Source: Prorocentrum cordatum (taxonomy: Eukaryota; Sar; Dinophyceae; Prorocentrales; Prorocentraceae). Taken from it: a DNA stretch of 64,000 bases. The stretch lies in contig CAUYUJ010022059.1 in the NCBI GenBank assembly GCA_963575745.1, forward strand, positions 1,266,331 to 1,330,330, in the 5' to 3' direction. The notes below the pieces were generated by a model. It saw only the letters and a list, made by a program, of their open reading frames with translations. It had not been told where the DNA came from and ran no database searches. A program made the position numbers and the translations under genes. Positions 4,801 through 57,040 of the stretch are shown here, piece by piece (the first letter of the stretch is position 1; every line of letters starts with the position of its first letter).

Positions 4801-6773
4801 GGTGTCTTCAGGTTCCGCTCGTCGATGAGAGCTTCTGTCGGGAATCCAAGCTCTAGGGGCCTCCGTGGAGCTTCGCCATATCGATTTGTATTCAGCTTCC
4901 ATGGCAGCAACGACATCATGAGGATGAGCTGAATACTTCCCAGCGCTAGTTATAACTGTGGTGGGAGCCTGTACTTGTCGAACTTGTGTCAGTCTGTGAA
5001 GGCCTCGAAGTCCTCCAGCGCTGGCTTGACGACACCAATCTTTCCATCTCGCTTTACTGTCTCTGTCGGCTTCCTGAAAGGCTTGGCCAACATCATCCTG
5101 CCATTCGTCTTGCAACTCACGTATGGCGCCTGCATGAAAGTGACCGCTGACGAGTCGACGTGCTTGCTCGACGCTGGCGCCCAACCTGCGGTTTAGGCCT
5201 TGCCCAGGGTAAGCGGAAGACTGCAGAATGAGAACCTCGTCCTGCAACTTGTTAAACTCCTCGGGCTGACGGCCTTCACGCAGTTGAGCAATTGTTGGAA
5301 CCACATCAGCAAGCCATTTCCATCCGTCTGCACGCGCTTGGATACCAGGAGCGCCCTTCAGCTCATAGTGGATGTCCACCCATCTTGGCTGTAGGAATTT
5401 GGAGTATGCGCCGTAATATTTGACCTCTGTGCCAGTAATATGAGCAATACGACGGGCTGCTTGCACAGCGAACTGACCCCATGCCAACGTTAGAAGTCCC
5501 CAAGCTGCATCTGGCCGTGCTTCTTAGGCTAGAACCAACGCCTCGTCAGCATACCTGGCAGCCCGACTCCAGGAATCATCTGGCAAGTGAGGGCCTTCAG
5601 GGATGACTGGTGACAACTTCGGCGCTGCGCCGTAGGCCAAAACTTGCAAGGACTTGCCTACTGCCGCCATGTGCAGGTGAACTGGCCTGTGCGGCTTGGT
5701 GTGCCACTCGGCGTCCACCGTGACGGTACGAAAAAGAAGCATGGCAGCCTCGCTCAGTGCGAAGTAGTCGATCGTAGATGCTGAAGTTGGAGTGCGGCAG
5801 GTGGCCTCTTTCGGAGCGGTGATCTCCACATGCGCAGGTAGTGGAAAGGTCGACTCCTCAACAACATCTGTGCTCATATTCCAGTCACCTCCAATGAGTG
5901 CTGGATGTGTGAGCCCAGCCATCTCTTCTCCAACTCTGGCGAGAATGGTCGCATTCCTGACTGGCATGCCCTCGCACGTGTGGAGGTAGATGTTAACTAT
6001 ACTCAGGGTCGGCCAGCCTGGGGCGTCCACTTGAATGTGCTGCGCTCTGTGTGCAACTATCTCCGACGTGTTAGCTGCAGGTGGCCAGCGCAGACCAATC
6101 CCATTGCGAGCAAAAACAGCGACGCCTGCTGTGGGGAGGTCACCTGCTGTGGGAGCTCCTGGTAGTGCGATGACTGACCAACCCATCTTTGCGGCGAAAC
6201 TGTAGAGCTCCTCCACGTCATGTGTGAAATAACAGATCTCTTGGGCCAGGATGATCTTGGCCTTGCTTGCTTTGACTCGCTTCTTTAACGTATTGCGCCC
6301 CTGTTGGCGTTGAAGGTCTCGATCAAATGCATCTGGAGAGCGCTCTCGGGAGTAGCAGGAGCCTGACTGCGACCACCACATACTCTGAGGCGGCTCACTC
6401 TTGGAAGCCGATCTCGGCTGGCGTTAGACGAATTCTGCGCGCCAGATTGCCAGTTTGCATGAGCTGCTTCCAACGACTGCGGCGACGAGTCCGTCGACTC
6501 GGACTGCCCAGGGACCCCCGAGATCCAGGGGGCGCCAGTGATGGGATCGTTGGCATGTGGCCTGCATCCAATATCAGACTGACCATACCCATCAGCTGCA
6601 GTACTTCCACCAATTGCGGAGGCTGCAAGAATCTGAACTGACGAAGCCGAGCTCATCGAAGTCGGCCCAGTACTGGAACTGCGTGTGCTATCTCCTCCTG
6701 CGTCGAAATATTGACCTTGGAGGGTAGCGGTGAACGTGTTAGGAGCCAGTCGCGCGCTGACCTGGAGCGCCAT
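1822..6773 (-). pseudogene. LINE ORF2: endonuclease-reverse transcriptase-RNase H, interrupted
   Basis: A first ATG at 6773 overlaps the ORF1 stop by 35 nt in another frame. A Ser-rich leader precedes an AP-type endonuclease domain (WN-like FNANRG start, LAQE, GGDWNM, TIDYF, and HRPVH where SDH is usual). The RT domain has YIDD where LINEs usually have YADD. A Cys/His cluster (CKCG..H..C) follows, then RNase H with DGS, AEF, YADF and a late Asp. Two lesions interrupt it: a one-base frameshift near 6300, just after the NANRG motif, and an in-frame TAA at 5524-5526. Downstream of the TAA the frame stays open for 1,233 codons to the TAA at 1822. Few lesions in about 1,650 codons suggest fairly recent inactivation. 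Confidence 0.88.
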
Positions 6774-7881
6774 GATCAGGGCTGCGAGTACGACTCCTCT
6801 TGGCTTTGTTGAGCTTGTTGATGAGCTCGAGCAGCTTGGTGGCCTCGTCACCTTGGGCTGCGTCACTCTGCAGGTCGCTCCACAATTCTTGAGCTTCCTG
6901 CAGGTTGAGTTCATCGTCGGTGCCACGCTTGTTGCTGGCGTCGGTGCCCGCTGCGGGTGGAGATTGCTGCTGCTCCGCCTGCGGCATGGGCACATCCTTC
7001 TTCTTGAACTTCTCGCGAATGAGCTGCTGGTACTTGGTGAAAACGGGGTCGGCCGAGAACTTGGCATAGAACTCCACGAGCTCTGGGACGGCTTTGACCT
7101 CTTCGCTCTCCGCATCCAGCTTGAACGTCTCCTCATCGAGCGCCTCGTCCTTGACATTGGTCGAGGGCTGCTGCGGGTTGAGCTTGGCCGCGCTCTCGGC
7201 GACCTCCTGCTGCAGTATCTTGACCTCGGACGTCTTGGCGATGATCGCGCTCTCTTTCCCTGAAATATCTTGTTGTAACTGTGCCATCTTGCGCTGCAAC
7301 TCTTCCCGCTCGCTCTGCTGCCTGACCAGCTGCTGCTTGGACTTCTCGAGCTACTGCATCGCTGTCTTGTGCGCCGTGGCGGGGGGGCGCAGCGCTTTAG
7401 CCTGGGCCCGAAGATCTTCGAGCGCAGCCTTGTTCGCGTCGTGCACGCCGCCGCCGAACTCGGCAGCGCCCCTGGCGACCTTCTCGTGCACCTCGATCTG
7501 CTTGAGAAGTTTGGCACGCTTGGCCTGAGCTGGGTCCTGAGCAGCAGCTGCTTCTTCTTGAGACTTGTCACTGTTGCCACTCTTGACTTTGCGAAGCTCT
7601 GCCTCTGTGGCCTTGAGGCGCTGCTCCATCTGCTGAATGCACTTGAACTCGGCGCTCCACGGGGCTGGCGACGGGCGAAGACCAGAGCCGCCAACTCTCT
7701 TGGACGGAGCGCCTGCTGCTGCTGCTTTGTCTGCCCCACGAGCGACGGCCACCGCCCACATCGGCGCGCTGGCGCCGCACAAGCATGCGACTCGGCTCGC
7801 CCAGTTGGCCGCGCGGCCACAGTGGCTGCAGCCCCAATGCGGCTTGCGCGGCCCGCGCAGCACTGCAGGGCTCGGCGCCAT
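6739..7881 (-). pseudogene. LINE ORF1: zinc finger plus coiled coil, one premature stop
   Basis: The ATG at 7881 is the first in frame, 165 nt downstream of the spliced leader. Residues about 10-35 contain a Cys cluster (HWGCSHC...NWASRVACLC) resembling a RanBP2-type zinc finger, although the last pair is C-x-C rather than C-x2-C. A long Lys/Glu/Gln-rich coiled coil follows, then a basic C-terminus (KAKRSRTRS). A single TAG at 7351-7353 interrupts the frame, which resumes immediately after. The composition fits the RNA-binding ORF1 of LINEs. The assignment rests on position and composition, not on a recognised catalytic motif. Confidence 0.72.
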
Positions 7882-8045
7882 GGCTGCGAAGCTGCTTGGA
7901 AAGGGGCTCGGACCGACAGGCACCTTCTGTCGGGATCGGGATCCCCTGAAATGGACTGGACTGGTTTGGAGAGATGCCTCAAAGCGGAACCTCCCTCGCG
8001 CTCAGTCGCCCCGAAAGACTCGCGGTCGCCGGGACGGTTCATTGC

Positions 8046-8067
8046 CTTGAGCCAAAATGGCTACGGA
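8046..8067 (-). other. dinoflagellate spliced leader (DinoSL), exact 22-nt match
   Basis: The minus strand reads T-CCGTAGCCATTTTGGCTC-AAG, the canonical 22-nt DinoSL with T at the variable first base. It sits exactly at the 5' boundary of the LINE, and the next bases upstream are (TCC)n. It marks the start of a reverse-transcribed trans-spliced mRNA. Confidence 0.95.
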
Positions 8068-9071: not shown

Positions 9072-9502
9072 GGGCAGTAATAACTTGTTATTGCAAGTCA
9101 TAAGTCGACGCCCCCAGGCGGGGGTGCCCCGCCGTCGGCGCACCGCGCGATGGCGGGCGCCCGCGTGCCCACCCGCCACGCGCCGCCGCTACGTCGGGCG
9201 GGCCAGGCCCCGCGCGGGCATGCTGGCGTGCCGCGCGGCCGTGCGTCGGGGTCCTTCCTCCCTCCGCTCCTCCGTGCACGGTCGCGATGTCCCCTCTTTG
9301 CCGCCTGGCCGCGGGGCGGGATATCAAGTGCCCGGTCATGTCTGCAGCGCCCCTCCTGCCTATTGCGCACTCTTAAGGTGGGGCGGCTGGCCGGGGTGTG
9401 GTCCTCTGTCTGCCAGCGTGCGGCTCTGGACCAACCCTGGGGGCGACGCGCGGGGCGTCCGTTCGCCAGAGTGCGTCGGGCGCGACCGCGGTCGCGCTTC
9501 TT
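9072..9502 (+). repeat. split direct repeat A1
   Basis: Starts GGGCAGTAATAACTTGTTAT and is collinear with 17712-18141, with scattered substitutions and single-base indels, until both copies reach GGTCGCGCTTCT, after which they diverge. Confidence 0.93.
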
Positions 9503-9869
9503 TTCCTTCTCCACCCTGGCGGAGTCTGTTTCACGGCCCTGAGGGGTCACGGCATTGCTATCAAGCCCAGAGTGGCCTCTTACGTCGGCCCAGTGTGACC
9601 AACGTACCCATAGGGTTCCCCCTCGCGGGTCCAGAGCGACCCTCGTCTGGCGGCCCAGAGTGGCCATTCAGTAGCAGGGCAGCCGATGCCAGCCCGCATG
9701 TCTGGCGGCCCTAGAGCGGCCAATCTTCGATGGGGCGGCCGTTGCGGCTTGCCTGATTGCCAGCAGACCCGCGCGTCTCGCTTGGAGGCCCATAGTGGCC
9801 AATCGTTGCAAACGTTTCTTTCGCATTCCCAGTGCGCAGTCGAGCGCGAGACTCGCAGCGCGCCAGACT
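9503..9869 (+). other. 5' leader of the DIRS element
   Basis: Non-coding as far as can be seen. It contains degenerate repeats of a GGCCCAGAGTGGCCA-like, partly palindromic word (near 9566, 9588, 9652, 9705 and 9790). Confidence 0.5.
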
Positions 9870-9963
9870 CGCAGCGCAAAGGCAGTGAACCCCCGCCGTC
9901 GGTCGACGGTTTTTGCTCTGGCTGCCGCAGGTTCGCAGCGGCTCCGAATGTCGGGCGAAGTCA
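9870..9963 (+). repeat. permuted duplicate of the recombinase-gene sequence
   Basis: 9870-9920 matches 16460-16512 (inside the recombinase coding region) and 9921-9963 matches 16404-16444. In the recombinase gene the second segment lies upstream of the first; here the order is reversed, as if cut from a tandem or circular copy. Confidence 0.8.
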
Positions 9964-9983
9964 GCGGCTTCTGCTTGCTTGCG

Positions 9984-10484
9984 ATGGCGGAGCAGGCTAC
10001 GCAGGCGGCGCTCGTGCCGTTCGAGGCGAGAACAGAAAGGGGCCCCTTGGTGCGCACCGCATCCCGCGCGCGGGTCGCGTACGCAGACACGGTGTTGTCG
10101 CAGGCGCGCGAGCGGCTTCGCTACCTGCCGGTTAAGGGGGCGGGCCCCAGGCTGCAGGGGCGAGCGCCAAGGGGCCCGCCCCTAGCAATGCCAACACCAC
10201 CTGCCAACGAGAGCTGCTGGTCGCCAGTCCGACTCGGAGCAGTCGGCCCTCGGTTAGTAAGGCTGGAGCAGGTGCGGGCTGAGCTGCGCTTCGCCCTGGC
10301 CCAATGCGCACCGCGTTTGCCGCGCGACGTCTGCCGTGTCATAATGGGCTACGCTAAGCCCCAGATCGTCTCTGCGCCCGTGATACGCTACCGTCTAATG
10401 GACAATCCAGACAGCGGCGATGAAGCGCACTTCCGCCTGGTAAAGCTGCGAGTGCGCCCGCCAGCGCGGGTCGCGGGCGCCTAG
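9984..10484 (+). CDS. uncharacterised ORF in the DIRS leader
   Basis: 166 codons from ATG 9984 to TAG 10484. Two stretches look protein-like: residues about 1-50 (Arg/Ala/Glu-rich helical) and about 90-165 (charged, ending near MDNPDSGDEAHFRL). The central Gly/Pro/Arg-rich part (about 10131-10250) may be an unrecognised intron or simply GC-rich filler. It precedes gag and follows the permuted repeat. No family was recognised. It might be a 5' extension of gag, but no joining intron was established. Confidence 0.3.
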   Translation: MAEQATQAALVPFEARTERGPLVRTASRARVAYADTVLSQARERLRYLPVKGAGPRLQGRAPRGPPLAMPTPPANESCWSPVRLGAVGPRLVRLEQVRAELRFALAQCAPRLPRDVCRVIMGYAKPQIVSAPVIRYRLMDNPDSGDEAHFRLVKLRVRPPARVAGA

Positions 10485-11185
10485 GGCGGCGCGCGCGACC
10501 ACAACGTTTTTAACAAACGCGCGCACTCGTGCCGTGCGTGTCGTCCCAGTGTGGATTTGCGCGCTCCCCCCCGCAACTGGAGGCCGCATGAGGGTCGCTG
10601 CGCGGGCTACTAAGTACGCCGTGTAGCGATGTCGTATGACGACGAGGTGCCGTCAACGCAGCCCGCCTCATGTCGCGAGACGTGTCACATGGGCCCTTCT
10701 GTGTGTTCTTACTGTCGCGTGCGCGGGCGGCGGGAGCATCCAGCCCCCCAGCGCGATCGCAGCACATCGTCGCCACGGAGGCGCACATCTGCCGCAGGGC
10801 CCTCAGGCAGCCCCTCGATGGAGCTGACGGCCACGGTGCCGCTTGGGCCGTGCGTACGAAGCGCGAGGATCGACCAGCTGGCCAGCGCCTGCCCGCTCGG
10901 TAAGACGCGTGACCCGCGCTCACGGCCATAAGCGGACCAGGTTTCCGCAGGCATCTCGCGTTGCGTTCCCGGCGCCGCCGTTCCTTCCGCGTTCGGGGTG
11001 CGCGCGTTCGTTTTGCGTCTGCGAAGCGGCGGACCAGGTATCTGCAGGCACCTCGCTCGTGTTGCTACCGGCGTCGCCGTCTTTCTGTGCGCGTGTTGAG
11101 TGCGCTGCGTTGCAGTCGGCCCGCCGCGTGTTCCCCGCGTGTGCGAGCAGTGCGACGCTGGTGTTTTCTGGCTGCTTTGTTCGTG

Positions 11186-12427
11186 ATGGCGGACGGACCG
11201 CTGCTGAGCTTTCTGCGCCAAGACCCCGTGTTCGGGGCAGAATGGTCGGACATCGAATACAAGGCTTCGATTGACTGCCTAGGCGCTAATAAGCTGCTGA
11301 CGCCGGCACAGCTGGCGAACATTCGGCTAGAGGAGCTGTCAGGCTCGGAGGGCCTGCCAGCGGGCGTGAAAGGCGTGCTCCGCCGCGCACTGGAGCGCGC
11401 CACAACTGCGGGTAAGCAGGTAGCGTGAGCGAGCGCGCCCGGCGAGCCCCCCTGGTCTGCACGCTCGCATCGGGGCGGAGGCCAATGTGGAAATGGCCGC
11501 CCCCGTACACCACGTAGACGTGGGCGCTGAGTTGGCGACGATTACGTTGAACGGCCTCGGCCAGACGATCTGGCCGAGGCGCGCCCTCACGTGAGCGCGC
11601 CAGCGGCGGTGACAGCGGTCGCTGCCTTGCACAGGAGCGAGAAATGTGATTGGATGGCTGCCGAGGTCGTACGCGCGAGAAAGAAGGGCTGCGCGAATCC
11701 TTTCGTTGACACTGATTTGCGCGGCTTTCTCCCGACCTGGGCCGCGAGCGCCCGCGGGGTCGACGACGCAGACGCCAACGGAGTGACGGCTGAGTGCGGC
11801 AGTAAAGGTCAGCGCGCGTTGTCGTGGGCCGAGTTTCACCTCGCCTACGACGCATGGGCGATTGCGGCTGCTGCCACTAAGCAGCTATCTTACGCACGCT
11901 GCTCGGAGCATAAGCGATTTGTGCCCCAGGTCCGCGACGTGCCAGCGCGCGCGCGCAGCGGCGCGCGCACCCGTTGCCTTTCGCGAGGTGGCCTTGGAAG
12001 CTCCGCTCGCGGGCCGCAAGGCGGGGCTTGGGCTCCTGTGCGACGAAATCGTCCGCAAGAGCTGGGCCGAGCGCTCGAGACAGAGCGGCGTCGAGAAGTT
12101 CAATATTGAGGAGGCCTCGAAAGGGCTCGACGCGTTGTCCCTGCGGTCTGCCGAGAACGAGATCGACCGCGCAGCCAAGGTCGCCCGCGCGCGCCGGCGC
12201 AGGGGCAGGCCGCCCAGGCCACGCCCGCGGGCAACGGCCGCGGCAGTGGCCGCGCCGCGCCGAACAAGGGCGCGGCGGAGACGCGCTATTCGCATTCCGG
12301 TGCGTCCTGGCACAGCGGCGGCTGGGGCCGATCTACGTGGAAGACGGGCGCGTGGGGCAGCTCGAAGAGGCCGGCGCCGAACGCGCCGCGCACGCCGCCC
12401 CAGCCCGCGAAATGGGCCAAGAAGTAA
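11186..12427 (+). CDS. gag-like protein of the DIRS element (spliced)
   Basis: Proposed exons are 11186-11419, 11481-11578, 11635-11929 and 11988 to about 12179, with a final segment to TAA 12425-12427. The first exon encodes a small helical domain (DIEYKASIDCLGANKLLTPA). The middle contains YDAWAIAAAATKQLSY followed, after splicing, by DEIVRKSWAERSRQSG. The C-terminus is Gly/Ser/Trp/Lys-rich (SGASWHSGGWGRSTWK) and probably binds nucleic acid. The first three introns keep phase exactly. The last junction (12180 to about 12217) would need an intron of only 23-38 nt and is unresolved. Gag identity is inferred from its position before the RT gene. Confidence 0.6.
11420..11480 (+). other. intron g1, 61 nt, GT-AG (gag)
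   Basis: Junction CAG|GTAGCG...GCGGAG|GCC, phase 0. Removing it joins the TTAGKQ exon to ANVEMAAPV and bypasses the TGA at 11426-11428. Confidence 0.65.
11579..11634 (+). other. intron g2, 56 nt, GC-AG (gag)
   Basis: Junction CCGAG|GCGCGC...GCACAG|GAGCG, phase 2. It restores the frame past a TGA. A GA-AG alternative three bases upstream also keeps frame. Confidence 0.6.
11930..11987 (+). other. intron g3, 58 nt, GT-AG (gag)
   Basis: Junction CCCCAG|GTCCGCG...TTCGCGAG|GTGGCC, phase 0. It joins KRFVPQ to VALEAPLAG across a frame change. Confidence 0.7.
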
Positions 12428-12689
12428 GGGAGCGCTTGACGCCCCCGATTCGCGGCGCCCTCGCAATGTTTGCGCGGTGGCGCCGTTCGCTCCGCGGCCG
12501 CGCGCGCGGCAGGCGCTGCTGCAGATGACGCCGGCGGTGCCCGTGACCTGCGTGGCTTTCCTGCCTGGCGCAGCGCGCCGGCCTCGCGCTGAGGCATTTT
12601 GACGCATTCGCCTGCGGTTACATTTCTATGAAGAGAGGGCCATTCGCGCGCGGCCCGCCCCAAGGCACGTAGCGTTCCTGCTCGCGCGC

Positions 12690-15600
12690 ATGGCGCGGCG
12701 CGCGGCGTTGCACGCAGGTCTGGTCTCGCCTTATCCGCGGTGGGCGCACCCGTGGAAGGCGTACAAGCATCCCGCAGAAGCCAGGGCTTCTCGTGCGAGG
12801 CCCTGCTCGGCTTGGGGGTGCGCGACCAATGCTCTCGCGCCCTCGTCCTACCCACGCGCATTGGTGGAGCGTGGCGGGTGGCATCGGTTGCCACCGCAAA
12901 CGCGCGCGTCGGCGGCGTCGCGCCTCTCGCGGAGTCAGCGGCGGCAGAGTTTTGTTGCGAGAGAGGGCGCGCAGGGGCTCACGGTTGCGCAGTCTTCGCA
13001 CTCTTGTATTATGGTGGTGCGGCCACAACGGTCAAGCATCATACCGGCGCCGCCGCCGCCGCCGAAACGACGTTGCACGGCGAAGGGCGCGCCGCCCGCA
13101 CAGGCGCCGCCGGCGCGGGACGGCGCAAAGCGCGCCCTCAAGCGCGACTTCATACGTCAAGCCCAAGGCAGGACATACGAATTTGAAAAGAAGATCACGT
13201 TGGCGACAGACGTCTCAGACGCGGCGCGCTGGATCAGCGAGCGCACGCCCGGCGCGGTCCGGCGAGCGCGCGGAGAAGCCGTTTGGCGCATTGAAACTCG
13301 GGCCCGCCAGCTCGAGCAGAGTGGCGCCATCGAGGCGTGGCACCGCGGCGCAGACGAAGGCGTTCGCGGGGCCGCCTGGCATGTCAACGGGCCGCTGCTT
13401 GCAGAGTTGGCGGCCAGCATTGGACACATTGATCGCGAATGCGTGGAGTTCTTTCGTCAGACGTGCCCGCGTGCCGCCGACGTTTGCCATCGCGCGCCCG
13501 TCGCGCGCGAAGGGGCGCCCCTGCTGGGTGAATTACCGGCGTCGGGCATTGGCGCGCCTGCTACATTTCCGCAAGAGAAGTCCACCGAGGTTCTTTTAAA
13601 AGGGCGCCCGGGCGGCAAACAAGCGTCTGCTCGCGCGTTTACGCTCCGACCCCAACGCGCAAGAGTTGCGGGGCCTCACGGATAAAGATTTCCGACTATG
13701 GAGGATGCGAGCGCCCGAGGGTCTGTCAGACCTCGACTTGGGCAGTGCCATTATGGTGCGCCGGTTCGGGGTAGTACAGGGTGTCAGGAGCGACGGCACC
13801 CGCAAGGCGCGCGCGCGCGCCCGCGCGAAGCGTTGTTTAAAGTTTGTCGTGCGCGCGCACTTCGCGGCAGGTTCGCGCGGTGGACGATTGCTCCATTGCC
13901 GGCATCAACACCGCAACGCGTCCGCGTGAGCGCATGCGGCACGAGACAATTGATCACCTATACCTGCTTTGCCGACTATTTACTGAAACGGTGGCCGCTA
14001 CGTCGCGAGGGCGCAAGGGCCACGCGCGCCCGGGTTGCAGGCATCCGCTGTGCCGCGCTTGTTTAAGCTCGACATCGACGCCGCCTTGCGGAGGCTTCCG
14101 CTGCGACCTGAGCATCGGGCTTTGATTAGGGTCATATTCCGTTACAAGGATGAAGTCACGGCGCATGCTCACTGCGCGTGCCCATTCGGGGCAGGCGCGC
14201 CGTCCGCTCTCGGCACACACCGCGTCGCACTTGCCCCCCGCGCAGTTGCAAGCGTTCACAACTGGGAACGCGTTGGCGCCCTCATATGCGCGATTCTACG
14301 CCGTGTACTCCACGCGGCGATCCTTCGTTACGTGGACGATATGTTCGGCGCCGAAAGGTGGGCCGAGGCGCGGGGTGTCACGCGAGCCGGCCGATCGGTC
14401 GCCGTCGCGCGCCGCGCGGCAAGTCGAACACCTGCTGGATTGCATCGCGCGCATCATAAGATGCTTATTGGGCCAGTCCGCGCTGGCAGACGAGAAGATT
14501 TCCTGTGCTGTCCCGCTCGGTATCCTGGGACTTCGCGTCGACCTCTCATCGGAGGGGATGTCGTGCGTTCCGCTGCCCGACAAGATCGCTAAGTGGACAG
14601 CACGTATCACGTTGGCACTCGATTCGGGCATCTTGCGCGCAGGCGTGGACCCAGTTTGCGGCCCGCCACGCAGCGTCGCGGCGCGCGCGGCCAGGTGACG
14701 CGAGCAAACTCGCGGGCGCACTAGCCTGGGCATCCGGTAACATGTTCAACCGCGCGGGGCGCGCCATGCTCAGGTGTGTTTTTCTGCACCGCGCGCCGGC
14801 AGCGCACCCATTTGCCACGCCCACGTTGCGGCAGGCCGATCTACGCCCAGGCACATCGCGGCTCTCCCGACATGCCGCAAGCGCTACGGCTAGTGCTGCG
14901 GTGGTGGTTGATCGTGCTGGGCGGCGAGCTGGCACAGTCACGAAGGTGGTGCGACGAAGCGGCGGGCCCCGTGGCCCATCTGTTCTGCGACGCAGCCAGC
15001 CGCCCGCCCATGGCGGCCGCCGTACTGTTCGTTGACAACAAATGCTACTGGACGTGCATGCCACCTGCCGCCCGGCACGGCTGCGCAGGTCAGCGTCAGT
15101 TTTGGTCGCGACGCGCGCGCACGCGTGCGCCAGGATCTTGAAGGCGTTCCAGCCCAGGGAAGATCATCAAATCATGGGCTTGGAAATGCTGAGCATTGCC
15201 CTGGGCTTGCGCTCGTTTGAACACCTGCTCCGCCGTCGGCGCGTCGTAATCTGGTCTGACAACGCAGGCGCGCAGGCCGCCGCCGGCAGCGGCGCCGCGC
15301 GCGCGTTCGATCACGCTTGTCTCCCACACGGCCTCTGGGTCAAGATTGCGCAATTGCGGTGTCTAGCACGTGTGGAGCGGGTGCCGACAGGCGAAAATAT
15401 CGCAGATGATCCGTCCAGGGGTGAGTTCGGGCTGCTGCGGCAGCTCGGCGCAGTGCGAATTGATCCGCACCTGGACGAGGCGTTCTGCACGCCAGCGTCA
15501 TGGACGTCGATGCTCATCCCGACAAGGCGAGCCAGCGCTCGCAGCACGGCTATGCTGCGAGGCAGCCGAAACTCGGCGCCAGCTATCGGGCATCTCGCGG

Positions 15601-15737
15601 CGCGTGCCACGGTTGACGCGCGCCACTCAGCAGGGGCTCGCGCCGCAGGGTCCACGCGACCTAGCCTGTATCATTATGTCTCACGACGATTTCGCCGCTC
15701 ATCTGAGCAATGTTCTGCCCAGAGCGTCACGTGCTGA
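12690..15737 (+). CDS. RT-RNase H polyprotein of the DIRS element (spliced)
   Basis: The 5' end is uncertain. From about 13010 an open frame encodes a pol N-terminal region (WISERTPG, EFFRQ, then GAPLLGELP). A one-base frame change near 13580-13625 is unexplained. From about 13628 to the TGA at 15735-15737 a single frame runs through exons ending at 13806, 13990, 14194, 14374, 14642, 14773 and 15074, and all phases agree. Motifs are VRAVDDCSIAGINTA, FKLDIDAA (RT motif A), ACPFGA/VASVHNWER, YVDD at 14329-14340, VIWSDN and ENIADDPSRG (RNase H). These are typical of DIRS-type RT-RNase H. The end overlaps the recombinase ATG by 62 nt in another frame. Confidence 0.82.
13807..13870 (+). other. intron p1, 64 nt, GC-AG (pol)
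   Basis: Junction CGCAAG|GCGCGC...GCGGCAG|GTTCGC, phase 0. It joins GTRK to VRAVDD, recreating a contiguous RT motif. Confidence 0.8.
13991..14040 (+). other. intron p2, 50 nt, GT-AG (pol)
   Basis: Junction GAAACG|GTGGCC...GGTTGCAG|GCATCC, phase 0. It joins LFTET to ASAVPRLFKLDIDAA. Confidence 0.78.
14195..14245 (+). other. intron p3, 51 nt, GC-AG (pol)
   Basis: Junction GGGGCAG|GCGCGCC...CGCGCAG|TTGCAAG, phase 1. It is a multiple of three without a stop, so unspliced RNA would carry a 17-residue insertion between CPFGA and VASVHNWER, which are adjacent in related RTs. Confidence 0.72.
14375..14423 (+). other. intron p4, 49 nt, GT-AG (pol)
   Basis: Junction GCGCGGG|GTGTCACG...GCGGCAAG|TCGAAC, phase 1. 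It joins the YVDD-bearing exon to VEHLLDCIARI. Confidence 0.72.
14643..14694 (+). other. intron p5, 52 nt, GC-AG (pol)
   Basis: Junction GCGCAG|GCGTGG...GGCCAG|GTGACG, phase 1. It joins ILRAG to DASKLAGALAWA. Confidence 0.78.
14774..14834 (+). other. intron p6, 61 nt, GT-AG (pol)
   Basis: Junction GCTCAG|GTGTGTTT...TTGCGGCAG|GCCGATC, phase 2. It joins GRAMLR to PIYAQAHRG. Confidence 0.82.
15075..15133 (+). other. intron p7, 59 nt, GC-AG (pol)
   Basis: Junction GCCGCCCG|GCACGG...GCGCCAG|GATCTT, phase 2. It joins CMPPAAR to ILKAFQPREDHQIMGLE. A shorter alternative starting at 15093 also keeps frame. Confidence 0.68.
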
Positions 15738-17349
15738 TGTCGACGCGGTTTGCTCTTGCCTGCGGTTTAACGGGATGACGCGCTGGCAGCACCTCGAGGG
15801 TGCGCTGTTCGATGACTCTCTGGGTCGTGAACGCCTTTCTGTCACCGCAGCGACAGCAGTGCGAGAGCTGCTGGCACGCCCGCAAGGTGGCGCGCATCGC
15901 GGGCGCGCGGGTCGCGCGCGCGCGCCGCGCGTATTCTTAAGGACGATGGGCGAACGCCAGGCCCAACGGTGGCGAGGCGGCGCGGGCACGCCCGTCGAGT
16001 CAAGGCTCTGCGAGCTCGGCTTCTTCATCGTCCTCTTCCTCGAGTGTGCGAATATGGGCACCCCGCGTGGTCAGTCGCAGACCGCTTTTCTCCGCACGTT
16101 GCACGCGCGCGACGTCTTCGCGCGCGGCCGCGCGCGCAGGGCATCCCAGGGCCGGCGCCGCCGCCGGGGCCTCCAGCCGCGATGCTTACGGCCCGTCGGC
16201 GGCGCAGCCGCAGCTCGGCAGCGGACCCAGTGGCAGCGGTGCGCCGTGCGCTACGTACGGCAACGGAAGGTTTCGAGCGTCAGATGGGCGATCCGCGTTG
16301 CGAGATCGCAAGGGCTGCCGCAGCCGTCGCGTCGCCCGAGGCGGGGCGGGCGTGGGCCCAGGTTGCCCGCAACAGCGCCCTGCTCGGATCGCGCCCGCGG
16401 TCACTACCGCAGGTTCGCAGCGGCCTCGAATGTTGGGTGAAGTTCGCGCGCGACGTTTTGCAGCGCAAAGGGCAGCGAACTCCCGCCGTCGGTCGACGGT
16501 CTTTTGCTCTGGTCTACGACGTTCAGGTGTCGCGCGACGTTCTGCAAGTACCTTTCGCATTTGAAGGAGGCATGCCACGTCGCGCGCGTGGCGGACGCAG
16601 CGTTCACACACGCGTCGCTGGCCGGCGCCGAGCTGGCTATCGAGAAGCGTTCGGGTTGGTCGGCGCGACCCCGCATGGCGGTCCGGATGCGCGCGCTGGA
16701 ACAGCTACTGGAACGCCCAGGCGCGTTGCCAGAGGGATCCGGGCTGGGTCTCCTCTTCGTGACCGCGTACGCGTTTCTACTTCGCCCCCCGTCGAAAACG
16801 CCGGTCATCCAACGGGCCGCCTCGCTCGACGACGCGTCGCATTTACGCGCGGGCCTTTTCATCTGCGAAGAGGCGGCCGTCTTATCGCTCGCCAGACGGA
16901 AGAACCGGGAAAGACGGACAACTATTGTGCGCAATTGCTGGTGTCAGCGCTCACGCGCCACGTGCCCCGCACACGCTCTCGGCGCGCGGTTCAACTCGCA
17001 GTCCGTTGGAGAGGCCCCGTGGGCGGGCTGGCGCGCCGCGGGTGTACGCAACGCGCTGCGGTCGGCACTGCGTCACACGGGAGTAGTTAACGCCGACGCC
17101 TACGGCACCCACTCGTTCCGTCGGGGCCACGCCCAAGACACTGTGGAGTTCGGCGGCCGAGCCGCCGACATCCTGAAGGCAGGTGACTGGCAGATGCCAG
17201 CTTGGATGCGCTATCTTGACGTTGTGAAGATGGAGCGCCAGGCCGTCGCCGAGGCGCATTTCGGCGCGTCGTCCAGTGACGACGAGGGTGGGGATTTGGA
17301 CCCCCCCGGCGTCCAGCGACGTCATTCCACGCTTGGTCGGTGCAAGTAA
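15676..17349 (+). CDS. tyrosine recombinase of the DIRS element (spliced)
   Basis: The ATG at 15676 opens a short helical domain (DFAAHLSNVLPRASRADVDA). Intron y1 (15887-15941) leads to a Ser-rich segment; the junctions between about 16050 and 16470 are unresolved. From 16471 to the stop at 17347-17349 the frame is uninterrupted. It contains the conserved fold SELPPSVDGLLLWST, a catalytic Arg in ARRKNR, a Cys-rich insert (CWCQRSRATCPAH), HSFRRGHA with HxxR at 17110-17121, GDW, and the presumptive nucleophile Tyr at 17212-17214 (MRYLDV). In DIRS-order elements this enzyme integrates a circular cDNA intermediate in place of a DDE integrase. An acidic tail (SSDDEGGD) ends the protein. Confidence 0.82.
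15887..15941 (+). other. intron y1, 55 nt, GT-AG (recombinase)
   Basis: Junction CCGCAAG|GTGGCG...TTCTTAAG|GACGATG, phase 1. It leads into a Ser-rich frame. Support is weaker than for the pol introns because no conserved motif spans it. Confidence 0.5.
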
Positions 17350-17528
17350 CGTCGCGCCAGGCCCCTTCGCGCGCTCGGTCGCCCTCGTTCGGTCCATCGG
17401 TCGCTCTCTCGCGGGCCACGCGTCTGCGGCCGTCTCTCTGCCCGGCATTGGGTGGCAGCGTGCCTGCGGGTGCCGCAGGCCCGCTGTGTGGGGCAGCGCT
17501 CGGCCTCAGCCCCTGGGCCCGTGGCAGT

Positions 17529-17708
17529 GGGTATGGCACCCATGTGCTTCGGCCTGCGCCCTGGCGCGCCAGCCGCCTGTGTCGTTTGACGCGGTGGGCT
17601 GGCGTGTCGGCTGTTGGCGCGCGGCCGCGGCCTCACCCGGCGTTGTTTGGGTGCCGCATTCCCCCCTCTGGGTGGCATCGCGGTCGAATGTCGCCGCGAA
17701 GGAGACTT
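17529..17708 (+). repeat. split direct repeat B1
   Basis: 180 bp, starting GGGTATGGCACCCATGTG and ending AAGGAGACTT. Collinear and equal in length with B2 (18168-18347). Confidence 0.93.
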
Positions 17709-17711
17709 TTG

Positions 17712-18141
17712 GGGCAGTAGTAACTTGTTATTGCAAGTCATAAGTCGACGCCCCCAGGCAGGAGTGCCACGCCGTCGGCGCACCGCGCATGGCGGGCGCC
17801 CGCGTGCCCACCCGCCACGCGCCGCCGCTGCGTCGGGCGGGCCAGGCCCCGCGCGGGCACGCTGGCGTGCCGCGCGGCCGTGCGTCGGGGCCCTTCCCCC
17901 CTCCGCTCCTCCGCGCACGGTCGCGATGTCTCCTCTTTGCCGCCTGGCCGCGGGGCGGGATATCAAGCGCCCGGTCATGTCTGCAGCGCCCCACCTGCCT
18001 AGTGTGCACTCTTAAGGTGGGGCGGCTGGCCGGGGCGTGGTTCCCTGTCTGCCAGCGCGCGGCTCTGGACCAACCCGGGGGGCGACGCGCGGGGCGTCCG
18101 TTCGCCAGAGTGCGTCGGACGCGACCGCGGTCGCGCTTCTG
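17712..18141 (+). repeat. split direct repeat A2
   Basis: Second copy of A1. It begins three bases after the end of B1, giving the B1-A2-B2 order typical of split-direct-repeat elements. Confidence 0.93.
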
Positions 18142-18167
18142 TTCTCCCACCCACCGCCCTCGAGGGG

Positions 18168-18347
18168 GGGTATGATACCCATGTGATTCGGCCTGCGCCC
18201 TGGCGCGCCAGCCGCCTGTGTCGTTTGACGCGGTGGGCTGGCGTGTCGGCTGTTGGCGCGCGGCCGCGGCCTCCCCCCACGTTGTTTGGGTGCCGTATTC
18301 CCCCCTCTGGGTGGCATCGCGGTCGAACGTCGCCGCGAAGGAGACTT
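18168..18347 (+). repeat. split direct repeat B2 (3' end of element)
   Basis: 180-bp copy of B1. It ends AAGGAGACTT and then unrelated flank begins (ATGCGCCCTG). Confidence 0.93.
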
Positions 18348-19052
18348 ATGCGCCCTGTGCACTCCGTCTTATCTGTCGCAAGACATGGTTGACAACGAAC
18401 GAGTAGTGATGAACGGTTGTGCGCGCCTAGTGCATATTGCAAGTGATGGTCGGGGGGGGGGGGGGGGGGAGGGGTCCGGGCCTGGCTACCCAGAGCGGCG
18501 AGCTGGCCCATGCGTCGCGGCCCCGCAGCCGCGGACTGGAGGCGCAGGTCGGGCCCGCGCGCCAAGTGGGACCCCCATGCTATTCAAGTACGCGCACGTT
18601 CACATGAAAGGCAGGAGCGGCAACGGCGACGACAGACGTGGCCGCGACAGGACGGGACACCTACACACATATATATAGTTGTGCGTATGTGTATAGGTGG
18701 GCGTACATACACGTATACAGACCTACGCAAATATTCACGCACGTGCCGTGTATATATATATATATACACATATATATATATATATATATACATGTATCGG
18801 GCCGAAGGCGGGCCAAGAGATATCCAGATCCAGCGCCTCGCAGGGTCCTGGGAGATCGGCTCCCCAGGCGGTGGATCTTTCGAAGTTCCAGCCTCGGCCG
18901 ACGCCGTAAGCTAGCAAGTGAAACAGAGCAGCGATAGGAACAAGCGAGCGGAATCGTCGCACAGACCATCGCGACTACTCGCCACGGCGCTAGCGGGCGC
19001 GCTTCTGCTCCTTGAGGTCTTCTGTAGGAAGAAAGACGGCATAAACACAAAC
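18348..19052. other. no recognisable gene; G-run and (TA)n
   Basis: Contains a poly-G tract at 18452-18469 and a TA/TATACA tract at 18655-18792. The open frames across it are low-complexity. Nothing else was recognised. Confidence 0.7.
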
Positions 19053-21777: not shown

Positions 21778-21799
21778 CTCGAGCCAAAATGGCTACGGT
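21778..21799 (-). other. spliced-leader relic upstream of the kinase
   Basis: The minus strand reads A-CCGTAGCCATTTTGGCTC-GAG, one difference from the DinoSL (GAG for AAG). It is oriented with the kinase gene and lies 87 nt before its ATG. It indicates that the locus derives from a reverse-transcribed trans-spliced mRNA. Confidence 0.88.
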
Positions 21800-23510: not shown

Positions 23511-23880
23511 GTCATCATCATCATCACCGTCATCATCATCAGCAGCATCACCATCATCATCCCCATCATCATCACCACCACCATCATCATCACCATCACT
23601 ATCATCACCATCGCCATCAGCAGCATGACCATCACCATCGCCATCAGCAGCATCAGCAGAATCAGCATAAGTATAAGTCTCAGCATTCGCATCAGCATCC
23701 GCATCAGCGTCGTCATCATCACCATCACCATCATCATCATCACCATCATCAGCATCATCAGCAGCAGCATCGGCATCAACATCATCATCAGCAACAGCAG
23801 CATCATCATCACCACAAGCATCATCAGCATCATCATAATCACCGTCGCGGTCGTCATCGTCATCGTCGTCGTCATCAAGC
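23161..23880. repeat. (TCC)n then (ATC/CAT)n array; 5' border of LINE 2
   Basis: TCC repeats to 23340, then long CAT/ATC runs with CAG/CAC interruptions to 23880. It gives spurious poly-His, poly-Asp and poly-Met frames. Confidence 0.97.
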
Positions 23881-24075
23881 CGCTCTCCTCTCGAGCCTTT
23901 GAGAGATAAGCGACCTCCCCACGCGTGCCCGCTCGCGCCCCCAGGCCCACGGCGGGGGGACTGCGGACCGCGAGGCGGTGGTGCCCGCGGCTCGCGGCGC
24001 GAGCGGGGGCCAGGCCCCCGCAGGCTCCCCCTCTTCTCCCGAGGCACGCCCTTCCTCCCACCCGCGTGCGCGCGC

Positions 24076-27000
24076 ATGTATGTGTACGTGCTGTTCATCA
24101 CCACCATCGCGCGCATCATGAGTCACCAGATCAAGATCGTAGGGTGGAACCCGTTCTCGGCCATAGGTGTGGGACGCATAGACGAGATTTCTGAGGAATT
24201 TAACACGTTCCACATCGTGATGATGCCTGGGACCAAGATCAGGGCCAAGCAACGGGCCCATCATCACTACGATAAAGGTCATCGACACTGGTTTCTACAC
24301 TTCGGGTGGGATCGAGGGAGCATGACAAACTCATCATGTGGATGCAGCATTGGGTTTCGGAATTCCAGGTTCCGCACTCAGGACATCACTCGTATCACTA
24401 CGCCTCCAGCAGAACTCCAAGGACGGGGCGGATGCGCCGACCTCATGCAGGGGAGTCTTCGGTTACGACTTATAGTGGCCTACTTCCCCCCACATCCCGC
24501 ACAAAGTACCCCAGCTGCCGTACGCCACTGGAAACTCAGCTTTGTCAGGCTCTGGGAGTGGGTCCTTCGGGAAGCATCCTCAGCACCATCGCGCATGGTC
24601 CCTATCATTTTCACGGACCTTAACCAGCCCCTCGGCCGCGTGCACCGTGCCCCTGCCCACGACCAGAGTATAGGACCACACCAGGCTGGCGCCGAGTCTG
24701 AGCTCGGCCAACGTGTTCATCGCAACCTATGTGAATCTGAGTTTGCGTCTCCCAACACCTTCTACGACCTCGGCTTTAGCTTCTTTGGGAACCGAGAGTC
24801 CCGCTCGCGTATTGATTATTTTTTCTGTCCACAAGCTCTTTTACCCTTGGTTCGTCGCATGTATATGTGTTGGCGCTCACACCGACGACTGCATTACCTT
24901 CCACACATGCTTGATCATATACCGATGGGCATGGAGGTCACAGTCTCGGCACCCCCTTCACCTCAAGATCGGGGCTATTGCGTTTGGGATTGGGGTCTCT
25001 TGGCCGCAGGCCTCGAAGTTGGTCACAGGCGTCGGGAATTTCTTCAGGACCTCCACGCGTCCCTGAGCCAGGTGCGCCCCCTCCTCGAAACGATTCTCAC
25101 CGACCAGGACCCTAGCCGCCACAACGCGGTGCTCGCATATCTCATTCGGCAGAGTGCAGCAAAGTTTTACTCCAAAGATCATGCGACCCCCCAGTGGGTC
25201 AAGGACGACAGAAAACATCGACTTACTCTTTTGCGTGAGCGGGCTGATCTTCGACAGCAGGGTCTCTCTCCCGAATCCAGCGAGCTCAAGATCATATCCC
25301 AGAAGATTAAGAAGTTCGAAAGGTTCAAAAATGCGTGGTGGAGACACAGCATAGAACAGGAGTTGCGTATGGCGTGGGCACGGCGCGAGACAGCACGAGT
25401 AGCAGAACTGGCACGCTTACGCGCAGGCACGCGTACCGGTGTACGCAAGCGCTCGTACCTCGCCCTCCCCTCGGCTCGCCCTCTGGCGTCATCCTTCCTT
25501 GGTGCTCTCTCTCGGCCTGGAGTGGAGGGAGGGCTTACTGCGTCAGAGGTCTTCGACAGTATCTGGACAGAGGATTGTTCGGCAGTCCAAAGCCTACTAG
25601 CTCGCCCTCCAGATCAGGTCTTCCCTATTGGCGTATGTTGTGAGGAGCCCTCGAGTGACGACATTACCCAGGCACTTGATGATTTAAGATTTATGCATGC
25701 ACGTTTGTTTCGTCAACGTCATCGTCGGTACAGTCCCCCCTGGTCGTGGCCATCCGAAGTGAGTATCATGATCATGAACCCACGTCACCTTAGTCGGCCT
25801 GGCTTGCCTGGCGCAGGTGTCGGCCATGACGACGCCGATTACCCTTTCGGTCTCGGTTGGGAGCCACAGAGAGCACGTGTTCCACGACCCGACAAACGTC
25901 GCTTAGGAGGCTTCAGTAACGAGGTCATGGCTGAGGGCCCTGCTGCACTGGCTTCCCTACTAGCTCACGTTCGGTGCTCTCGGCGGTTACCTCGGCAAGC
26001 TTACACCAGCCACGGCATTATGATTTCAAAAAAGAACAAACAGCCGACGGGGGACCCTATCAAAGACATTAACTCGTGCCTCAGGATGATTCATTGTTTC
26101 TGCCCATGGTGGCGACTTTATTTGCGAGTAGGAGTACTTGATTATGGATACGCGTGTGTATTTCCTGACTGGGCCTATGGGGGTATACGTAACAGACGAC
26201 GTGAGGCCTTGATGAGCATCGTTAAGATACTAGAATGGAAATTACGCACATGTAAATTATCATATCTAATCAAGTCTTACGACATGCGGAACGCTTTCGG
26301 CACCGGTTTCACATCCAAGTTGATCGAGAATTCTGATTGGCGATGCGAGTCTCGACACTTTCGGCAGATGCTGGCCATGCACCGCGAGAAGGCGGTGATT
26401 CACGTTGACGCGGCGGACCGTAGTATCTGCCTTCGACCCGCGTCAGGAGGGAGGATGGGGGATTCCAATGAGCCCGAGTTCTTCATGGGTAACTTCTACG
26501 GCCCCGTTATTAGGTGGAAGCTCCAGATGAAAGACCTCACAGGGCCCCTCCTCCAGGCCACCTGCCCCATCACTCAGAAGCCCCAGGACCTTTCCCTCGG
26601 CGCCTTCATCGACGACCTTATAAAAATCATGATTGTTCCAGATGGTTCTTATCGTCAGGCCCTCACCCTCGATTTGATTGATAACAACACCCTCAACGAT
26701 GAGCTCGAGCACGACGGATATGCCCAAAACGTAGCGAAGCAGGACACAATCATCAAGCTAGCCACTACGCAAGCTACGAAGCAAGCCGAGCAACATATCA
26801 GCGGAAATGCCGTCACTAACTTAATTCATCTGGGAGGGTATGTTAACGTGGGAGGGTCTAACGCCAGGGAGGTCACGGAGCGCATACGGTCCTGCAACAT
26901 AGGTTGGAGCATGCTCTCTCGCTTTCTTACCTCACCCGCCCCCATCATGAGCAAGCGGATGACGTTCATCGCCAACGTCGCTGGTCGTGCCTGGTCGGGT

Positions 27001-35600: not shown

Positions 35601-37080
35601 TTCCCCATCATCCTCATCCTCATTCTCATCCTCCTTCTAATCATCATCCTCCTCCCTCTCCTGATCCTCCTCCTATTGCTCCCCCACGCGTTCCCCGAAG
35701 GCTTTCCAAACTGACTCGGGGATTAACTGGCCCGATAGCTTGGCCAAGCTCTAGCCCAGCTGTCGGCCACATAGGCGCTTCCAAAGGGACAGGGGGCCGC
35801 GGTGATTCGCCGTATGCGTCTTCGATAACACCAACTTCTCAATATGCGCTGATGATCCCTATCCGCCCCCAGCATGTTCCCAGATGCGCCAGGGCACCGC
35901 CGAGACGCACCGACGCGACCCTGGTACATCCCCTTCTGAAAGAGTGAGGGCTGGCGGCAGGGGGCGAAGCCCTTACGGATAACAATTATGTTATGTATGG
36001 ATATGTGGCTGCGCACGCTTACTACAAGCATCAGGAACAAGAAAAGCGAGGGAAGAGGGCAACACGAACCCCGTACACCTGCATGTGTTGCCCGTGCCCT
36101 GGTGCTGGGTGTGGCGGGGTCGCGACGCTCCTGGGCGCCGGCGTCGACAAACCTGGCGTATCCAGCTTGCCTGCGGCGCCCGGGGGCCGCGCACCGCCTC
36201 CTCCTCCTCCCGATGCTGCGGCCCCTCCTCGTCCCCCGTGGCCATTTTGATTCAAGGCTGGGCCTTCCGCGCGCACGTTTTCGGGGCGCGCAGGCGTGTG
36301 GGAGCCACGCGGGCGCTGAACAGAAAGAGCGGGGCCCTACGCGATAGCACACGGCGACTTTACATGAAAGCTCACATAGGCCGCCAGCGCGGCACGCCGC
36401 GTGGAAGATACAGCCCTCACGCGCGACCCATCGCGGACAACTCACGCGCGACTGCCCGTGCACTCCGCCACGTGTTTTTCACGCTCGTGGGGGGGAGGGG
36501 CATGCACAGCGTTATTCGAGGTGAGTGGCTGTTGAGCTCTCGCTCGGTTTTTGCAGATTGGAAAGGTTAGCCAATCAGTCGCGTTGTGATCACAGCTTGC
36601 GGTGGCAAGGGGGGTTACCCTGGCGACGGCCAGATCGTGCGCCGCATGCTGTGCGGGCGCCGCGATTACGCGGCTCACGCCGAACAGAAACGCTAACGTT
36701 TGACCCTGGGGGTCTTGGGGCCTCGCTGCTGGAGGACTGCTCAGGAACGACGGCCAACCACGTGGCCCAGGAGCGGCGCGAGAACCAGGTAGCTTTCTCG
36801 GCGGAAAAACGCCGTGGGCGTACATCAGCGCGCCGCCCGTCCTCTAGCTTTCCAGGACTCATGGCCGTGGCCGCCCAGCTGATGGACCTGATTGCTGCCG
36901 TTGCTCGTGGCCTCCCAATCTCGCATTGCCCTCCTTCCGACGGCGCTATTTCTCTCTGACGTAGGCCCGCGGGGACATCGACCCTTTCCGCGGGGCCGTC
37001 GTTTGTTCCTCTAGGGCCAGACACCCTCGGGCCCACCGCGTACGAAAGGCGCCCCTCCTCCACCGCAATTGTTTTTTATT
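35600..37080. other. no recognisable gene
   Basis: TCC-rich to 35690, then GC-rich sequence without protein similarity that I can recognise. A spliced-leader relic is at 35-36 kb (listed separately). Confidence 0.5.
36235..36256 (+). other. degenerate spliced-leader relic
   Basis: Reads CCGTGGCCATTTTGATTC-AAG, three changes from the DinoSL, on the plus strand. No convincing coding sequence follows. Confidence 0.55.
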
Positions 37081-54949: not shown

Positions 54950-56316
54950 TGGGGCGGTTCAGCGGAGGTACGTCATACGCAGATCACCACTATAGCGCGC
55001 GGTGCCCTGGGGGGCTGCGATCCGCGAAACTGTCGGCAATGTCGTGGGCTCCTGGAGGGCCCAGCGGAGGTACGTCATACGCGGATCACCACTAGAGCTC
55101 GTGGTGCCCTGGGGGGCTGCGATCTGCGAAACTGTCGGCACTTTCGTGGGCTTCTGGAGGCCCAGCGGGGGTACGTCATACGCAGATCACCACTAGAGCT
55201 CGCGGTGCCCTGGGGGGCTGCGATCTGCGAAACTGTCGGCACGTTCGTGGGCTCCAGGGAGGCCCACTGGAGGTACGTCATACGCAGATCACCACTATAG
55301 CTCGCGGTGCCCTGGGATGGTGCGATCCGCGAAACTATCGGCAATTTCGTGGGCTCCTGGGAGGCCCAGCGGAAGTACGTCATACGCAGATCACCACTAG
55401 AGCTCGCGGTGCCCTGGGGGGCTGCGATCTGCGAAACTGTCGGCACTTTCGTGGGCTCCTGGGAGGCCCAGCGGAAGTACGTCATACGCAGATCACCACT
55501 ATAACTCGCGGTGCCCTGGGGGGCTGCGATCTGCGACACTGCCGGCACTTTCGTGGGCTCCAGGGAGGCCCAGCAAGGGCACGTCATACGCAGATCACCA
55601 CTATAACTCGCGGTGCCCTGGGGGGGCTGCGATCTGCGACACTGCCGGCACTTTCGTGGGCTCCAGGGAGGCCCAGCGGAAGTACGTCATACGCAGACCA
55701 CCACTATAGATCGGCGGTGCCCTGGGGGGGCTGCGATCTGCGAAAATATCGGCACTTTCGTGGGCTCCTGGGAGGCCCAGCGGAGGTACGTCATACGCAG
55801 ATCACCACTATAGCTCGCGGTGCCCTGGGGGGCTGCGATCTGTGACACTGTCAACACTTTCGTGGGCTCCAGGGAGGCCCAGCAAGGGCACGTCATACGC
55901 AGATCACCACTGTAGCCCGCGGTGCCCTGGTGGCTGCGATCTGCGACACTGCTGGCACTTTCGTGGGCTCCAGGGAGGCCCAGCGGAGGTACGTCATACG
56001 CGGATCACCACTAGAGCTCGCGGTGCCCTGGGGGGCTGCGATCTGCGAAACTGTCGGCACTTTCGTGGGCTTCTGGGAGGCCCAGCGGGGGCACGTCATA
56101 CGCAGATCACCACTAGAGCTCGCGGTGCCCTGGGGGGCTGCGATCCGCGAAACTGTCGGCACTTTCGTGGGCTCCTGGGAGGCCCAGCGGGGGTACGTCA
56201 TACGCAGATCACCACTATAACTCGCGGTGCCCTGGGGGGCTGCGATCTGCGAAACTGTCGGCACTTTCGTGGGCTCCTGGGAGGCCCAGCGGAGGTACGT
56301 CATACGCGGACCACCA
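54950..56316. repeat. 102-bp satellite, about 13 copies
   Basis: Units contain GTACGTCATACGCAGATCAC + CACTATAGCTCGCGGTGCCC, TGCGATCTGCGAAACTGTCG and CACTTTCGTGGGCTCC. GTACGTC starts at 54968, 55070, 55171, 55273, 55375 and so on. 102 bp equals 34 codons, so long periodic frames exist on both strands. Confidence 0.97.
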
Positions 56317-57040
56317 CAAATGCTCCTTGTGTGACTGTTTTGTATGTTCGCCGCTGCTCTTCTTGCTGCGCTCTTCTGAAATCACTTCTGGGTGTTCTTC
56401 TTGCGCACTGCGAGTCATTCAGAATGCCGAAACATGCTCGCGGTGTTTTATTGTCTATTTCAAAATATGCTCCAATGAACACAAGAGTCAGTACGCAGAT
56501 GAATAAACGAGATTCGAACGCTTGCATATCTCATCCTCAATATCATTCGTGTTGTGGGGCGTCGGAGCGTTATCTGCTCAGTTAGCGATTACACCATCGC
56601 CTACCCAGCGGTGCAGCCGCGCCGTGGCCCAAGCGGCGCAATGTCCCAATGCCGAACGGCCCTAACCAAATTCTGTAATCTGCACATACACACGCGCTGG
56701 CTGCCGGCACAGCCACCCGATGACCGTGCAACGAGATACCTGACCGCCTCGGCGGTCAAGTGATTTCACCGGTTTCGAAACACGAATTCTGAGTAGTCGA
56801 GGCTCAATGGGTCTAGGCCCACATTGGCAGCATTGCAGCTTCAGTGGCCCAGCGGTCAGCGCCCCAATCTCGCAAAAGCTCGCCAACACTTTCAAAAAGG
56901 TAGATTTGACGAATCATCGTCGATCATCCTCCTGCCCCGCTACCACGCTCACGCAACCAGTGGCCAGTGATTAGTTGCGTGATGCCAAGGCCGATAACAG
57001 AGGCATGACGTGAGGCAGAAAACGGCAACGACAAATTGTA
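56317..57040. other. no recognisable gene
   Basis: Relatively AT-rich for the window. No ORF or RNA gene was recognised. Confidence 0.5.

Follow-up and report, generated by a model that had tools for sequence, protein, structure and literature searches.

Introns are generally assumed to be lost in retrotransposition, so much so that copies without them serve as its signature. How a retrotransposon could nevertheless be copied with a dozen of them is the question raised by a locus of the dinoflagellate Prorocentrum cordatum, contained in a stretch of 64,000 nucleotides (contig CAUYUJ010022059.1, positions 1,266,331 to 1,330,330; hereafter the window, in whose coordinates all features are given). 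A preliminary description of this DNA had noticed that the frame breaks of a retroelement coincide with short segments that begin with GT or GC and end with AG, and this holds. The element is a tyrosine recombinase (YR) retrotransposon that spans 9072-18350 of the forward strand (9,279 bp), more than had been described, with all of these segments inside it and with split direct repeats in the order A1...B1-A2-B2. The segments are best read as introns, of which the window copy has twelve: four in gag, seven in the reverse transcriptase (RT)/RNase H region and one in the YR gene. Particular lineages acquired such introns and kept them through transposition. We consider it probable that a dinoflagellate family of split-direct-repeat YR elements gained about twelve GT/GC-AG introns and was then amplified with no detected loss, from a template that bypasses splicing.

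Intron borders and the homology test

The gag introns, all on the forward strand like the others, are G1 (11420-11480, 61 nt, GT-AG, with a GC donor in 5 of the 18 copies that cover it), G2 (11579-11634, 56 nt, GC-AG), G3 (11930-11987, 58 nt, GT-AG) and G4 (12180-12217, GT-AG), the last being the weakest of the twelve, with 38 nt in the window and 76 nt in 18 of the 19 copies that cover it. The RT/RNase H region contains I1 (13807-13870, 64 nt, GC-AG, phase 0), I2 (13991-14040, 50 nt, GT-AG, phase 0), I3 (14195-14245, 51 nt, GC-AG, phase 1), I4 (14368-14422, 55 nt, GC donor, phase 0, with an acceptor that is degenerate in the window and intact in 20 other copies), I5 (14643-14694, 52 nt, GC-AG, phase 1), I6 (14774-14834, 61 nt, GT-AG, phase 2) and I7 (15075-15133, 59 nt, GC-AG, phase 2). 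The YR gene contains Y1 (15887-15941, 55 nt, GT-AG). Removal of the four gag segments leaves a single frame of 342 aa from ATG to stop, and removal of the seven pol segments leaves, as had been claimed, a single frame, which is stop-free over 581 codons (13600-15734). At least eleven introns of 49-64 nt, five of eleven being GC-AG, had been proposed. Their presence and most of their borders stand; G4 is the twelfth, I2 and I4 have been moved to the positions given above, the lengths in the window range from 38 to 64 nt, and the donors, by family majority, are six GC and six GT. Borders of the GC-AG type are ordinary in this host, because 51.4% of P. cordatum donors are GC and 24.7% are GT, with AGG acceptors in 79.7% (PMC10666404). 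When 11 of the 12 introns were folded as RNA (G4 was left out), the z values of -1.7 to +1.3 revealed nothing beyond composition.

In GC-rich DNA a frame that closes is by itself weak evidence, and homology provides the stronger test; the P. cordatum genome (4.15 Gb) has 59.7% GC (PMC10666404), and the window has a GC fraction of 0.51-0.70 in 2-kb steps. Junctions were counted over those of 70 relatives (P0053-P0122) that cover the junction in question in a single alignment; a few of the 70 are close copies carrying the introns. Relatives matching the whole query are 35-47% identical to the spliced RT, a few lower, and intronless relatives, with identities of up to 47% along the full spliced RT, align across the junctions. 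No indel was found across the junction in 45/52 relatives at I1, 60/61 at I3, 61/64 at I5, 59/63 at I6 and 51/54 at I7.

The same sites were scanned with a profile against 457 frame-preserving excisions each, only two to six of which obey the GT/GC...AG rule. A rule-obeying excision ties the best score at I1, I3, I6 and I7, and lies 0.2 bit under the best at I5 and 0.5 bit under it at I2, the scan having moved I2 to a GT donor and a length of 50 nt. A longer I4 was also preferred: the border first drawn scored 7.4 bits under the best, and the redrawn one, which does not end in AG in the letters of the window, 1.8 bits under. The 20 genomic copies set the I4 acceptor one base earlier, giving the borders listed above with a GC donor. 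The gag introns and Y1 are supported by frames and copies, the homologue test being confined to pol. Judged by their letters, the segments have the GT/GC-AG borders expected of spliceosomal introns, and the junctions, tested for the seven pol introns, are confirmed by relatives.

A decayed element can also accumulate random indels that imitate introns, and the window copy is indeed decayed elsewhere. This explanation is countered by the boundary rule, the closure of phases, the junctions of the relatives and the identical positions in the copies; it is refuted for I1-I7, and with G4 as the weakest of the introns it is very improbable overall.

Retention of the introns among genomic copies

The genome assembly (4.13 Gb in 21,875 contigs) was searched for further copies, and at least 40 YR matches, with 86-92% identity to the window YR, were assigned to what is here called family 1. 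In the 20 copies fetched, 234 of the 240 possible intron sites are covered; every one of the 234 holds its intron, and none of these was reduced below half of its length in the window. The donor was GT or GC at 227 of these sites and the acceptor AG at 225, the remainder being damaged in single copies. The same introns thus occupy the same positions with shared boundaries when other genomic copies are aligned, as the preliminary description had proposed to check. Close relatives (P0050, P0076 and P0115) hold the same introns, read through in frame. The suggestion that the introns had been gained in this copy, after it landed, fails on the occupied sites of the 20 copies and on these three relatives, and its probability is now negligible. 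The other alternative offered there, that splicing is regulated, may still hold: the introns outlast transposition, which implies a template that escapes splicing.

Probes for spliced copies gave the same picture. For I5+I6, none of the 40 copies scored (the best 40 of 96 candidates) was contiguous, nor was any of the 40 scored for I1-I3 (the best 40 of 104), and 0/40 places the spliced share below about 7% (95%). The family-1 probes covered I1-I3, I5 and I6. Three copies of odd length came up with the I1-I3 probe and were rejected as losses: one has a 94-nt deletion over an exon and part of I2, one a 34-nt deletion inside I1 and one a 32-nt deletion in an exon, none of them intron-precise. 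No intron-precise loss, even a partial one, was seen among the copies examined. At locus L017 (5340-5760), I6 carries a large GTGT/GTGC microsatellite expansion and a run of N.

Copies of family 1 diverge from each other by 4.6-5.1%, compared with 4.7% between A1 and A2 within a copy, and this similarity fits a single burst followed by neutral decay. Two loci considered as closer out-groups (C19196 and C392) proved to be ordinary family members and were rejected as such. As the variation within the family has no codon-position bias, its copies are uninformative on selection for the spliced protein, for which the evidence comes from one small comparison with the outside relative P0076. In 4 of the 20 copies and over seven hand-picked segments, with I5 left out, differences from P0076 were found at 7-10 of 184 exon residues, compared with 13-14 of 76 residues in the intron frames (Fisher p 0.0002-0.007), a modest contrast of the kind expected if the spliced protein were conserved.

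A second, younger family

Family 2 is represented by 27 rows of the search at 45% YR identity, from which five copies were sampled. Their longest shared stretches are 98.9-99.8% identical (97.6-98.9% for the 5' part of L033), and A1 and A2 are 99.4% identical in two copies. The RT of this family has one GC-AG intron of 109-110 nt, at a position unlike any in family 1, and it is present in 5/5 copies, in one of which the exon base next to the donor is altered. With a spliced probe, none of the 40 loci scored (the best 40 of 83 candidates) was contiguous; in all 40 a gap of about 109 nt separates the two halves of the exon sequence, of which one is 100% identical in 40/40 and the other in 32/40. 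Introns persist through many insertions, including very recent ones in family 2.

Other families of the same genome lack introns in the RT. At L034, L035 and L037 the RT aligns as one intronless piece, with a stop in that of L034, and L034 and L035 appear to be one family; L036, with a decayed RT region, was not counted among the loci without introns. Comparison of both families with the intronless loci indicates that intron content varies among families of one genome. The YR of L034, L035 and L036 is 59-77% alike to that of family 1, and the RT of L034 and L035 only about 38% alike, for which module exchange is a possible explanation. The 73 RT relatives (P0050-P0122) have a variable linker and, at many other places, in-frame inserts of 10-28 residues. 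Counted by hand, 17 of the 67 relatives outside the window's own family have one. P0051 and P0118 share the position of I3, and seven lie near I4. These inserts, seen in protein sequences, are candidate introns.

The existence of other families with an intronless RT and a related YR allows another explanation, by which family 1 is a passenger copied by the proteins of such families and its introns never needed to be spliced. After long neglect one would hardly expect twelve phase-matched introns, nearly all copies with their splice dinucleotides, and spliced frames that are still open, and the young family 2 likewise keeps its intron. We regard this explanation as improbable.

An origin of the introns as introner elements was also considered and is unsupported in the seven pol introns tested. 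Only one of them (I1, in a GC run) reaches 8 nt in a search for the terminal inverted repeats of 8-20 nt by which introners are recognized (PMC7789003), I4 having been searched with its earlier borders. Stretches of 4-6 nt are shared near the borders of 7/7, a count made without a chance control, where introners have direct repeats of 3-5 nt. Likeness among the seven introns is limited to shared GC-rich words of at most 15 nt.

Template and messenger

In the mechanism that we favour, family 1 would first have acquired about twelve short introns and then multiplied to many copies. Its proteins would be made from spliced mRNA, given the agreement of the spliced frames with intact relatives. The nucleic acid copied into new insertions keeps the introns, as the copies examined show, and so would bypass splicing as a whole. 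This template would most likely be an unspliced full-length RNA held apart from the spliced mRNA, and family 2 would behave alike with its one different intron. If one RNA pool served both purposes and were spliced partially and at random, losses of single introns would be expected; that none was seen favours a template that wholly bypasses splicing. As to which molecule this is (unspliced sense RNA, antisense RNA or DNA), we can only infer it.

Several points weigh against this mechanism. Both the splicing and the unspliced template are deduced from DNA, and antisense RNA or DNA might equally serve as template. The window copy itself is decayed, and the variation within family 1, without codon-position bias, is that of star-like neutral decay. 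Each probe scored 40 candidates, out of 96, 104 and 83, and introns of family 1 only were addressed by two of the three. Finally, I2 and I4 failed the junction test (4/54 and 0/62 relatives without an indel), counts that refer to the borders first drawn.

Copies might instead arise without any unspliced sense RNA, either through antisense RNA or at the level of DNA, with the YR excising circles and reintegrating them. The complete retention at the covered sites is easier to understand for a template that the spliceosome never encounters in the sense orientation, and an antisense template has been discussed for Penelope (PMC3846280). The predicted structure of a piece of the YR (predicted local distance difference test, pLDDT, 84) has Cre recombinase as its best PDB matches (E 7e-6), and a YR with the Cre fold supports the DNA-level route. 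On the other hand, in family 2 A1 matches A2 and B1 matches B2 within a copy, apart from the first few positions at the ends and a few private changes, and in family 1 A1 and A2 differ in majority at three positions, none of them fixed. Such near-identity is required by the published reverse-transcription model for split-repeat elements (PMC6681497), which it fits without being decisive. A route of this kind is on balance unlikely, though it is the rival to which we give most weight.

A template kept apart from splicing could have wider bearing. Dinoflagellate YR retrotransposons may fully separate template from messenger, the copied molecule never being spliced, so that introns become heritable and accumulate lineage by lineage as in host genes; we advance this proposal tentatively, with slightly more doubt than confidence. 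With twelve introns retained in family 1 and one in 40/40 scored loci of family 2, the rule that retrotransposition erases introns fails for these elements. They offer a natural system for studying the escape of template RNA from splicing, and they record intron gain cleanly in a sequence with many copies.

Relation to known elements

The SymbioDIRS elements of Symbiodinium are likewise dinoflagellate YR retrotransposons, with A-coding-B-A-B repeats. They carry methyltransferases as embedded intronless genes, and the portions of that source used here report no intron of the element itself (PMC5890265). No methyltransferase turned up in the present element, in which no search was aimed at one. 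Ngaro-like elements, such as those of Cafeteria, share the A1-[ORFs]-B1A2B2 arrangement, the gag/RT-RH/YR order and a GC-rich composition. They are about 6 kb long and have no introns in the part of their description consulted (PMC8547959), compared with 9.3 kb and 12 introns here. Retention of introns through retrotransposition is shared with Penelope-like elements, which have a GIY-YIG endonuclease where the present element has a YR, and Penelope has been contrasted with all other retrotransposon types in dispersing intron-containing genes (PMC3846280). The introner elements of dinoflagellates (PMC7789003, PMC10666404, PMC11453091) also represent intron gain in this group, and differ in their terminal inverted repeats and family similarity, neither of which the seven pol introns showed when tested.

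By word search, 'intron' is absent from the main text of two surveys of YR retrotransposons (PMC3266345, PMC3783388). Among the titles and beginnings of abstracts listed in literature searches, outside which the founding papers lie (Goodwin and Poulter 2001, 2004; Poulter and Goodwin 2005; Poulter and Butler 2015), no report of introns in these elements was noticed. Introns may have been mentioned for some elements of this kind.

Structure of the element

The limits of the element are defined by copies, about 95-96% identical, that share its ends and differ in their flanks; the 3' end lies at 18350 in 6 of 7 fetched copies, the remaining one being 3 bases shorter. On the forward strand, A1 (9072-9505) is 95% identical to its partner A2 (17712-18144), and B1 (17529-17711) is 95% identical to B2 (18168-18350). 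The internal B1|A2 junction corresponds to the right end fused to the left end. Many other copies have about 114 nt at 9505-9507 that are missing from the window copy, and two short pieces in the 5' region (9878-9966) resemble YR coding sequence (16404-16504) in swapped order.

Three coding regions follow on the same strand. ORF1 (open reading frame 1; 11186-12427), of 342 aa once its four introns are skipped, is called gag-like by position, and its stretch 11531-12109 has no match in Pfam. The RT/RNase H region with its seven introns (13600-15737) is identified by frame closure and by relatives, 71 of which were found at E<=1e-5 with the spliced RT as query. RVT_1 was matched below the Pfam cut-off in the relatives P0053 and P0058 and not by the spliced query of the window itself, and the RT_RNaseH match (E 0.023) is also below the cut-off. 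The YR frame (15676-17349), broken in the window copy near 16,470, has no Pfam match; its R, W and Y columns, which we take to be catalytic, are invariant across 32 sequences. With these repeats, an RT with RNase H and a YR, the element is a split-repeat YR retrotransposon (order DIRS; Ngaro/PAT/VIPER type). A Crypton, which has a YR without RT, is ruled out by the RT, and a Penelope-like element, with a GIY-YIG endonuclease and no YR, by the YR. One scan with the YR found no relatives in viral contigs, and Rfam and tRNA scans gave no match.

Other features of the window

An exact 21-base relic of what we take to be the dinoflagellate spliced leader (DinoSL) lies at 8046-8066 on the reverse strand, and none occurred in shuffled sequences. 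It sits at the upstream end of an open frame of 591 aa (6285-8060, reverse strand) without a Pfam match, and together they look like a retroposed mRNA. Weaker DinoSL-like matches occur at 21778-21798 (reverse strand, one mismatch) and 36236-36256 (forward strand, three mismatches). An open frame of 1,853 aa (23839-29400, forward strand) has no Pfam match; six long frames of the window, other than the coding regions of the element, gave none in that database. A 102-bp tandem repeat with about 13 copies occupies 54960-56317.

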